A stretch of 61,763 nucleotides of DNA from Alphaproteobacteria bacterium (GTDB lineage: Bacteria > Pseudomonadota > Alphaproteobacteria > UBA9219). Within the stretch, counting starts at the first letter, position 1. The number at the start of each line of letters is the position of its first letter. Positions 59,199 to 61,763 of the stretch are shown piece after piece. The notes below the pieces were generated by a model. That model searched no databases, was not told the DNA's origin, and worked only from the letters and a program-made list of their open reading frames with translations. The DNA lies in assembly GCA_028690155.1 (NCBI GenBank), contig JAQVBU010000013.1, forward strand, positions 1-61,763. The letters run 5' to 3'. Position numbers and translations under genes: made by a program.

Positions 59199-60284
59199 TT
59201 ATAAAGAACACGTTCCCGTGGGGCTTACGTATTGAAGAATAATAAGGCCCGCGTTGCCACCACCACCCGCGGTTGTCGCCGCCGCCCCGGCTGCGGCAGG
59301 CATCGAGGTTACGCTGGACCACGTGTTGGCCCCAACGCCGCCATAAGTCCCCCCCCCGTTTGCCCCGGAGGTTCCGCCAGCAAAGCCTGTATAGCCGCCG
59401 CCGCTGCCATGCCCTCCGCCGCCGCCTCCATAGGTATTGGGAACCGTACCTCCGGAAGCGCCGCTGCCTCCGTAAGCACCCGCAAAAGCGGAAGATCCCT
59501 GCCCACCCGCATTTAACGACCCCGCCAGACCGTTATAATACGATGATGTTCCCGCCGCTCCTCCGGCAGAACAAGTTGCCCCCCCCGCCGGTGCTGCTGC
59601 TGCATCGCTAGGAAGAGTGCTGGCGCCACCGCCACCACCGTAATAGCCGGAGCCACCACCTCCGGACCTTTGCGTCCCACCACCACCGCCAGCCCCTACA
59701 TAGGCAGCCAAATTCGCTCCGGATGCCAGTGAAAACGACCCGCTTGAGGAAGAGCCGGCAGAAGGAGAAACAGGATTCCCTGTCAGATAATCATAGTACC
59801 CACCGCTTCCGCCGGTCCCACAGCCCTGCAGCGTTCCACCAGCAAACACGGCACTGCTGCCGCCACCACCACCGCCGCCGACAAGAGAGACCTTTCCAGC
59901 ATACCCTCCACCGCCCCCGACAATTTCATAGAAAACCGTGACGGCCACGACATAAGGATTGGTTTCTGACAAAGAGGACGTGATAACTTTCGTACACGGC
60001 GTGCCGACCGTCACGCATGATTGAGGGTTGTTGTAGAACGAATCCCATGACGTTTGATTGGACATCGGAACCATAACGGTTGCCGAGCAATTGTTGATCA
60101 CCCCTAATTTTGTCGGGGTTGCTGTAAATCCGGAAGGCGTGATGATCCCCGTTCCGCTGGCCGCCACGTAGGCACAGGTCGGAGGGCTGTCGGTTGAACA
60201 ATCGGCCCAAGCAGGCAATCCGGCAAAAGCCGCCGCCAACCCGCCAAGGGCCGAGGCGGCCAGAAGGCGGCGACGAGCCGTCAT
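59199..60284 (-). CDS. Exported glycine-rich surface protein
   Basis: A 361-residue protein. A signal peptide (about 1-27) carries a twin-arginine-like start (TARRRLLAAS) and ends in PAWA. Residues about 28-110 hold several Cys (CSTDSPPTC, NNCS, PQSC, TPCT), probably disulfide-linked. Residues 115-350 are low-complexity Gly/Ser/Ala, with repeated GGGGG blocks and Tyr-Gly patterns that fit polyglycine-II helix bundles as in ALK-type glycine-rich domains or phage gp38 adhesins. The start ATG at 60284 overlaps the stop of the upstream gene (ATGA), so it is translationally coupled to it. Confidence 0.85.
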   Translation of the reverse strand: MTARRRLLAASALGGLAAAFAGLPAWADCSTDSPPTCAYVAASGTGIITPSGFTATPTKLGVINNCSATVMVPMSNQTSWDSFYNNPQSCVTVGTPCTKVITSSLSETNPYVVAVTVFYEIVGGGGGYAGKVSLVGGGGGGGSSAVFAGGTLQGCGTGGSGGYYDYLTGNPVSPSAGSSSSGSFSLASGANLAAYVGAGGGGGTQRSGGGGSGYYGGGGGASTLPSDAAAAPAGGATCSAGGAAGTSSYYNGLAGSLNAGGQGSSAFAGAYGGSGASGGTVPNTYGGGGGGHGSGGGYTGFAGGTSGANGGGTYGGVGANTWSSVTSMPAAAGAAATTAGGGGNAGLIILQYVSPTGTCSL

Positions 60285-61763
60285 AACCGCCGCCCTTTCG
60301 ACGCGACGCGCAAACGAACCCAAAGGCCGCCGCACACGGCGCACAAGACGCCGTTCACAACAATCAAGACAAGCATACCCAAGGGGAAGGGCTGTTCTTC
60401 TTGAGGTGCCTCCACTTTCGGCGCCGCGCGTTGAGGCAACGCGTCAATTTGTGCGCGAAGGGCTTCATTTTCGTTCTTCAGTTCACGAATGGACTCGATG
60501 ATCGGCGCGATCAAGCCATTATATTTGACGGCCAAAAAGCCGTTTTCGTTTTGGGAAACGAGATCGGGGAAAACTTCTTGAAGGTTCTGGGCAATCACAC
60601 CGTAATCATGCTTGTCGTTTTCTTTCCACACAAACGACACGCCCCGAAGCTTCATCAGCCGATCGAGCGCTTGATCAACAGGCTTCACATCCTTTTTCAG
60701 CCGAATATCAGATGACTGATAATACCCCGTGCTGGCGTTCACGTTTCCGACCACATCCAGCGTATAGCTCGGGCTCGTCGTCCCGATGCCGACGTTGCCC
60801 TCTACGGCCAGCCCGTTAGTCGGCCCAGAGCCCGACATATAAGTCGTCCCTATTACTGCATCACTCCCTCTGATCAAAAGAGCGCCGAGACGTTTGCCAA
60901 CCGGGCCTTGAACCTCTGCAAGGGTTGCGCTATCGCCGGCATTATATGCTTGCAGTATCAACGAGACATCGGCCCAATCAACAAGTCCGTCACCATTAAT
61001 GTCTGCGTTAGCATATTGGGCTGGAGTCAATGTTTGGGTTCCGCCTAAATAACCCTGCACATATAAAGTATCGCTGAGGGTTAGCGACCCATCCCCATTG
61101 GCATCGCCCGAGCCACCGCCGATATATTCACCGCCTATAACGTGCAGCGGAGCAATAGGCGCCGTCGTCCCAATGCCGACACTGCCCTCTACGGCCAGCC
61201 CGTTAGTCGGCCCAGAGGTCGACGCCATATAAGTCGTCCCTATTGCTGCATCACTCCCTCTGATCAAAAGAGCGCCGAGACGTTTGCCAACCGGGCCGTG
61301 AGCTTCCTCAAAGGTAATAATCCCATTATATGCCTGCGATATCACCGAAGCATCACCCACATTGACAACCCCATCCCCATTGATATCCGCAGCGGCATAT
61401 TGGGTGGGTGTAAGCGTCGTACTTCCAGCTATGTATTGCAGAACAAGCGTGGCATCGTAGGGGGTTACACTCCCACTCCCATTGACATCGCCCGAGCCGC
61501 CACCAATATATTCACCGCCTACAACGTGCAGCGGAGCAATAGGCGCCGTCGTCCCGATGCCGACGTTCCCGTTCTTCAGCACGGTCATGGCGTTCGCCTT
61601 GGCCGCGCTGCTTGTCCCAATCCCGATCTCGAAAATCGGATCCGTCGTCACCCAAGACGTTGTCGTCCCGCCTCCCACGTTGTAGCGGCCTATTGTCACA
61701 TCTGCATACGCCTGAGCGGTCGTATAATATCCCGTGGCTAAACTGTAGCCTCCGGTTGCTACT
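60281..61763 (-). CDS. S74-domain surface protein with dockerin-like repeats and C-terminal membrane helix (5' end outside window)
   Basis: At least 493 codons are visible; the gene continues beyond the right edge with no stop. Numbering from the GTG at 61699: the frame before it reads like YadA-type head repeats (ATGGYSLATGYYT), then two VGIGTTAPIAPLHV modules with dockerin-like pairs (DVNGSGSVTPYD, DINGDGVVNVGD; DANGDGSLTLSD, DINGDGLVDWAD), a third VGIGTTSP module, the S74 intramolecular chaperone/protease domain (about 327-412, with Ser330 and Lys335 in SSDIRLKKD), a coiled coil, and a membrane helix at about 437-463. S74 domains trimerise, then self-cleave before the Ser. It is coupled to the glycine-rich protein gene. 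Confidence 0.85.
   Translation of the reverse strand, partial: VATGGYSLATGYYTTAQAYADVTIGRYNVGGGTTTSWVTTDPIFEIGIGTSSAAKANAMTVLKNGNVGIGTTAPIAPLHVVGGEYIGGGSGDVNGSGSVTPYDATLVLQYIAGSTTLTPTQYAAADINGDGVVNVGDASVISQAYNGIITFEEAHGPVGKRLGALLIRGSDAAIGTTYMASTSGPTNGLAVEGSVGIGTTAPIAPLHVIGGEYIGGGSGDANGDGSLTLSDTLYVQGYLGGTQTLTPAQYANADINGDGLVDWADVSLILQAYNAGDSATLAEVQGPVGKRLGALLIRGSDAVIGTTYMSGSGPTNGLAVEGNVGIGTTSPSYTLDVVGNVNASTGYYQSSDIRLKKDVKPVDQALDRLMKLRGVSFVWKENDKHDYGVIAQNLQEVFPDLVSQNENGFLAVKYNGLIAPIIESIRELKNENEALRAQIDALPQRAAPKVEAPQEEQPFPLGMLVLIVVNGVLCAVCGGLWVRLRVASKGRRL
60776..61560 (-). repeat. Tandem repeat of about 387-390 bp in the S74 gene
   Basis: Two long near-identical copies are offset by 387-390 bases. 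For example, TGATCAAAAGAGCGCCGAGA at 60871 recurs at 61261, and GTGCAGCGGAGCAATAGGCG at 61142 recurs 384 bases later at 61526. Each unit encodes one VGIGTT module plus one dockerin-like pair. The DNA is almost identical in the shared blocks, pointing to recent duplication or gene conversion. Confidence 0.9.

Follow-up and report, generated by a model that had tools for sequence, protein, structure and literature searches.

An S74 domain followed by a predicted C-terminal membrane anchor in an alphaproteobacterial fibre protein, with a possible role in fibre release

Introduction

Bacterial fibres ending in an S74 domain have been described among the mosaic adhesive trimeric (MAT) fibres of Bdellovibrio, which possess a signal peptide, a conserved N-terminal beta domain of ∼130 amino acids following it, a long trimeric beta fibre and a C-terminal tip, S74 or another, and which exchange their tips (PMC10769870). 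One of these fibres, Bd3182, is reported to cleave itself at Ser782, and the S782A variant does not (PMC10769870).

In eukaryotes, MYRF and MrfA combine a trimer-forming, self-cleaving ICA domain with a coil and one membrane helix (PMC3742443, PMC8326128, PMC3828593). MYRF is described as a type II protein, whose cytosolic N-terminal side carries a DNA-binding part (PMC3742443). Its cleavage falls directly before the serine (PMC3742443, PMC8326128), is stopped when the Ser or the Lys is replaced by Ala, and is reported to require the trimer (PMC8326128). The glycines G626 of MYRF and G956 of the phage K1F endosialidase are given as important (PMC3742443), and a conserved Pro before the Ser is reported for MRFs (PMC3828593). 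As told in the MYRF papers, the K1F chaperone possesses a Ser/Lys dyad and has a chaperone role.

Here I describe an alphaproteobacterial gene encoding a fibre, an S74 domain and a predicted membrane helix, in this order, and compare it to these systems.

Results

The fibre gene and its surroundings

The window, the whole stretch of DNA analysed, is 61,763 nt long and constitutes the entire contig C10 of a 2.1 Mb genome (G000) that is 99.36% complete; the 5′ part of the fibre gene is missing for this reason. The visible part is an open frame of 493 codons and a stop, continuing beyond the contig end (Table 1). Residues are numbered along these 493 codons, and subtracting 21 gives the numbers of the original prediction, where Ser351 and Lys356 were Ser330 and Lys335. 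The 472-amino-acid protein that it took for the gene product is incomplete: its first codon is an internal GTG, and the frame leaves the contig. When the genome was searched for the lost N-terminus, using the fibre of a relative, the sole match was the locus in the window.

Table 1. Positions of the fibre gene, its parts and the downstream gene in the window.
Feature	Positions	Strand	Basis
Fibre gene, visible part	60281..61762	-	Open frame; window is the whole contig
Dockerin type I module 1, residues 91–143	61334..61492	-	Best Pfam Dockerin_1 stretch; PDB dockerin chains match the same residues
Dockerin-like module 2, ∼residues 220–265	60968..61105	-	Counted as second Dockerin_1 stretch; limits from a sub-threshold EF-hand_7 match
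Duplicated fibre segments D2 and D3, beside the dockerin modules	60753..61315	-	91% / 81% DNA identity to the reference copy
Peptidase_S74 / ICA core, residues 351–402	60557..60712	-	Pfam; structure model and PDB match
Ser351 codon, predicted nucleophile, predicted cut directly before it	60710..60712	-	Invariant in 76/76 rows
Lys356 codon, predicted general base	60695..60697	-	Invariant in 76/76 rows; aligned to Lys of 7dc3
Gly388 codon, likely counterpart of the K1F/MYRF glycine	60599..60601	-	Invariant in alignment
C-terminal coil helix, residues 414–445	60428..60523	-	AlphaFold2; separate fold gives 418–441
Predicted membrane helix, ∼residues 457–484	60311..60394	-	Hydropathy; helix 461–489 in single-sequence fold
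Basic C-terminal tail, residues 485–493	60284..60310	-	Sequence; positive-inside reading inferred
Downstream gene, 361-aa glycine-rich protein	59199..60284	-	Sequence; start overlaps the fibre gene stop (ATGA)

Eight scanned neighbours match a DEAD-box helicase, LptD, a HAD hydrolase, a cyclophilin, DUF4389, an HU/IHF-type protein, an AI-2E-type transporter and a Hda-lid/AAA protein. Since LptD is the outer-membrane LPS exporter, an LPS-containing outer membrane is expected. The glycine-rich protein encoded downstream possesses a signal-peptide-like N-terminus (by eye); searches of Pfam, PHROGs and NCBIfam gave no match for it. Matches to it, mostly over the glycine-rich part, were found in four of the 34 sampled genomes of the window's order, with seven in one of them (G004).

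The original prediction of a dockerin-bearing fibre agrees with Pfam, where two Dockerin_1 stretches were identified in the visible protein (whole-protein E-value 7.1e-24). These modules are held by a repeat, D1, the copies of which are 73% identical in DNA sequence. Residues 1–90 are fibre. Here the closest relative is L033, which shares 73% identity across 81 residues and contains YadA_head repeats. The MAT fibre bd2133 matches the fibre part weakly (E-value 7e-4, with no single stretch passing alone). The L033 gene (3–1055) combines the window-like fibre with a different C-terminal end, lacking S74, and is followed by a PAP2-like membrane protein (by eye); this is a possible case of tip exchange. 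Separately, a dockerin-like module (by eye) lies within the same type of fibre repeat in L034 (2–3226), from a distant small-genome bacterium.

Identity and fold of the S74 domain

The Pfam family Peptidase_S74 (PF13884) matches residues 351–402 with an E-value of 2.5e-18 and 66.5 bits, for a curated cut-off of 22. I aligned this domain with 45 of the 71 non-redundant sequences of the order and 30 of 126 others, all of them scoring 45 or more (alignment A2, 76 rows). The resulting profile matches the tail-fibre chain 6f45 (E-value 1.7e-24) and the MYRF chain 7dc3 (E-value 6.7e-20). Ser351, Lys356, Gly388 and Ala391 are invariant in all 76 rows, and the Asp following the Ser is nearly so. In a weak pairwise alignment to 7dc3 (E-value 0.23), Lys is found at Lys356 and Ala in the Ser351 column, which I take to be an inactive mutant. 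Gly388 is likely the equivalent of the K1F and MYRF glycines.

Among the 78 S74 ORFs of the order, 71 show the pattern S..R.K, and six further ones keep the S-x4-K spacing with the Arg replaced (by eye). The last one, L003, lacks the dyad part of the domain; located at 1336–2340 on G000:C40, it is a third S74 copy of this genome, with the domain start missing, and adjoins a transposase-like sequence (by eye). The S-x4-K spacing alone is not discriminating, since every row of A2 has both residues, whether the protein is anchored or not.

In an AlphaFold2 model of 219 residues, the S74 core and coil form a block with pLDDT of 95–98 (∼residues 355–444), including the helix 414–445. A Foldseek search using the single-chain model returned the MYRF ICA domain (7dc3, E-value 6e-6) as best PDB match and phage K1F (3gw6, E-value 9.6e-4) as next. 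Sequence and model thus both support that the visible protein carries an S74 fold; the original prediction had placed an S74 core with this serine and lysine here and named a predicted structure lacking the S74 fold as grounds for refutation, and both the residues and the fold were recovered.

The C-terminal hydrophobic segment

The order of parts is the S74 domain from Ser351, the coil to ∼445, a linker, the predicted membrane helix (∼457–484) and a basic tail. The 19-residue Kyte-Doolittle maximum in the membrane segment is 2.44, a value that 24 of 20,000 shuffled versions of the 68-residue tail also attained, and behind the 19-residue hydrophobic core stand five basic residues and not one acidic residue. 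Folding the last 79 residues as a single sequence gives a separate helix at 461–489, but in the larger AlphaFold2 model the anchor stretch is of low confidence and not helical. With this one dissenting model, the coil, C-terminal membrane helix and basic tail of the original prediction hold, and the layout of S74 domain followed by predicted anchor is confirmed as a real property of this gene at the level of sequence and modeling.

The hydrophobic stretch could also pack inside the trimer, or contact another protein, without spanning a membrane, which would fit its unstructured state in the larger model. I regard this as very unlikely, given the hydropathy maximum, the five basic residues, the separate helix in the single-sequence fold, and the behavior of the other S74 ORFs of the order, described below.

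Distribution of the anchor

S74 domains were found in 33 of the 34 sampled genomes of the order. An anchor was called when a segment after the S74 domain reached a hydropathy of at least 1.6 over 19 residues. This identified 10 of the 77 distinct S74 ORFs, in eight of the 34 genomes (three ORFs in G003, and one each in G000, G011, G015, G019, G022, G024 and G030), and none of the remaining 67 passes the threshold after the domain.

Outside the order, no anchor was accepted in 49 S74 ORFs of other Pseudomonadota (50 of 54 matches examined; 299 genomes sampled, own included), in 68 of the phylum of G061 (70 of 76 matches; 239 genomes), or in 61 of the phylum of G062 (60 of 61 matches; 99 genomes); all three groups are samples rather than entire groups, and one cut-off ORF was set aside in each. 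Two, zero and two ORFs, respectively, had been flagged before inspection. As judged by eye, the hydrophobic stretch of L142, L222 and L193 lies inside the domain or coil, while L207 is the same as L190 into the S74 domain and then continues as different sequence with two hydrophobic stretches, representing either an artefact of assembly or a genuine fusion; all four were rejected as anchors. In the G061 phylum, where the listed genomes are 0.5–2 Mb, the S74 domain is mostly non-terminal, with a median of 234.5 residues after it.

The anchor was likewise found in none of 94 viral S74 ORFs, from 80 loci representing the best 80 of at least 403 confirmed candidates (one cut-off ORF set aside; K1F itself is not among these loci by name). 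Together with the bacterial counts, this is in line with the original statement that most bacterial S74 proteins lack such an anchor, and I found no description of a bacterial S74 protein with a C-terminal membrane anchor in the open-licence literature searched. The viral count also bears on a prophage reading, in which the gene would be a tail fibre or what remains of one. PHROGs tail-fibre and baseplate profiles do match, mostly over the S74 part; however, the absence of the anchor from this viral set and the helicase, LptD, HAD, cyclophilin and other matches of the eight scanned neighbours (the upstream side lying beyond the contig end) make a prophage origin extremely improbable.

Some tblastn matches extend beyond S74 into the anchor region, and at least 80% of the query is covered in 15 of 1298 records from phages and 9 of 230 from plasmids. 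I opened two of these records; in both, the S74 protein stops behind the coil, stop codons interrupt the match and another gene comes next, and a phage or plasmid source of the anchor was rejected on this basis.

Octanol-scale sums are favourable for all ten anchored ORFs and for three of the 67 others of the order, and outside the order for 8/44 in other Pseudomonadota, 7/59 in the G062 phylum and 33/68 in the G061 phylum. As unanchored ORFs also score favourably, this scale alone cannot separate anchors.

Topology and origins of the anchored proteins

The tail is basic in all ten anchored ORFs, with 4–10 basic and 0–2 acidic residues after the anchor segment. The N-terminus is visible in only four anchored relatives. 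The three G003 proteins begin with Sec signal peptides (by eye), and the G030 relative, a frame of 9801 residues with the S74-anchor ending (G030:C1 ∼607450–636850; L381, L382, L104), has an N-terminal membrane segment. The other five are cut at the contig or locus end, except that L021 is instead preceded by an in-frame stop. The basic tails and the N-terminal export-type segments of the relatives suggest an N-outside/C-inside topology, which is likely for the window protein as well.

Consisting of a linker, a hydrophobic stretch and a basic end, this C-terminus also has the tripartite look of a sorting signal, which would be cut off by an exosortase, a sortase or a similar enzyme. The motif MPQTGG precedes the helix in one relative, L021, with a sub-threshold sortase-signal match (E-value 0.18), and exosortases score over the cut-off in 11 of the 34 order genomes, including four of the eight anchor carriers and seven of the 26 others. 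At an E-value of 0.001, however, no exosortase (PF09721) was matched in the nearly complete genome of the window, nor a sortase (PF04203) in any of the 34 genomes, own included, and the window protein has no NCBIfam sorting-signal match. I therefore consider a sorting signal distinctly improbable; the LPXTG-like motif, confined to one relative in an order with no sortase match, was rejected as a sortase signal.

In G003, the three anchored fibre genes lie in tandem with overlapping ends (L073 1159–8367, G003:C2), and the ATGA stop/start overlap seen in the window recurs between the second and third.

For 77 S74 domains, a quick tree built on 86 columns and with many weak forks requires at least five changes of the anchor label, of which the well-supported forks force just one. 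An AU test disfavours a single clade of anchored sequences (p 0.026), and on this weak tree the window domain does not group with the nine further anchored domains. From these sequence comparisons, multiple origins of the anchor or domain swapping are likely.

Another type of S74 protein in the order is a pilin-S74 fusion. A prepilin-type motif is present near the N-terminus in 28 of its 77 S74 ORFs, and in none of those of the three outside bacterial groups, many of which have no visible N-terminus. PF07963 scores over the cut-off in the copy of this kind found in the window's own genome (L002 328–1809, G000:C1) and in eight of ten relatives scanned, one of which also shows a sub-threshold Shufflon_N match.

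Discussion

I propose that the window protein may be an exported, trimeric MAT-like fibre that its S74 chaperone-protease tethers to the inner membrane, and which is freed by self-cleavage; the chances for and against this are about even. In this proposed mechanism, the chain would be exported N-terminus first, until the C-terminal helix halts export. Three S74 domains and their coils would gather the chains and fold the beta fibre, and a correct trimer would build the Ser351/Lys356 site, leading to a cut directly before Ser351. The fibre would leave the membrane carrying the dockerin modules and a newly exposed tip, and the chaperone and coil would remain there. The anchor would thereby keep a fibre membrane-bound until it is folded, so that only correct assembly leads to its release.

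I infer export, trimerisation, cutting and release by analogy, according to which the window protein should cut before Ser351; such a cut would part the fibre from the membrane-held chaperone. This is supported by the S74 fold, the invariant Ser, Lys and Gly, the predicted membrane helix and basic tail, and the recurrence of the layout in 10 of 77 ORFs. It is also supported by the loss of cleavage reported for the MYRF mutants and Bd3182 S782A (PMC8326128, PMC10769870), and by the export-type N-terminal segments of four anchored relatives, the YadA_head-containing relative and the weak bd2133 match. The original prediction of release from the membrane is a reasonable proposal, but the dyad that it cites is no proof of it, being conserved to the same degree in S74 proteins that have no anchor or are pilin-like. 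Other observations speak against the proposal: the residue before the Ser is variable, unlike the Pro of the MRFs, the 219-residue model has no anchor helix, and a freed fibre must still cross the outer membrane, with one anchored relative reaching 9801 residues.

The main competing explanation is that S74 only chaperones trimerisation, or cuts inefficiently, so that the helix is a lasting inner-membrane anchor. It would account for the strong hydrophobicity and the basic residues that follow in ten of ten cases, and for the lack of conservation before the Ser, where S, A, V or I is found among the anchored proteins. Against it, A2 shows no variation at the Ser, Lys and glycine, self-cleavage is reported for a bacterial S74 fibre (PMC10769870), and a long fibre fixed by its C-terminus would stay periplasmic in a bacterium that encodes LptD. 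I consider a lasting anchor unlikely, but by no means negligible.

More tentatively, and with some doubt, the locus may represent a bacterial folding-gated release switch, where fibre trimers form on an S74 chaperone anchored in the inner membrane and leave it only upon self-cleavage of the assembled trimer. The S74-anchor combination would then be bacterial in origin, have arisen probably more than once, and be independent of MYRF. If true, this would be a bacterial counterpart of the MYRF-type arrangement, in reversed orientation and with a structural rather than a regulatory payload, and would provide diderms with a way to let go of a surface fibre only once its trimer is correctly assembled. 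The survey also points to an alphaproteobacterial order with S74 proteins in 33 of 34 sampled genomes, pilin-S74 fusions included.

Comparison with known systems

The K1F chaperone shares the S74 fold of the window model, and has no membrane anchor. The pilin-S74 fusions of the order, such as L002, have the same S74 domain, coil and dyad, with a prepilin-type segment at the N-terminus and no C-terminal helix.

The original prediction described the layout as MYRF-like, and this stands for the succession of S74 domain, coil and membrane helix, but probably not for the orientation. The basic tails and the export segments of the relatives point to the reverse of type II MYRF, and a fibre is found ahead of the S74 domain; Pfam gave no match to an Ndt80-like DNA-binding domain in the 493 visible residues.

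The likeness to the MAT fibres is closer: those of the S74 subgroup are bacterial fibres with a C-terminal S74 domain, and their long trimeric beta fibre is what is proposed for the window protein (PMC10769870). Their exchange of tips is echoed by L033, with the same fibre and another C-terminal end. The window fibre differs by its dockerin modules, and the region corresponding to the conserved N-terminal beta domain lies beyond the contig end. The MAT fibre paper presents no C-terminal membrane helix in its main text, where the word "transmembrane" does not occur (PMC10769870). The class of fibre is thus already known, from MAT adhesins that include a self-cleaving S74 fibre, and the anchor is the part undescribed in the literature searched. 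The nearest described bacterial kin look to be the Bdellovibrio MAT fibres rather than MYRF, with the window protein resembling an anchored variant of these.
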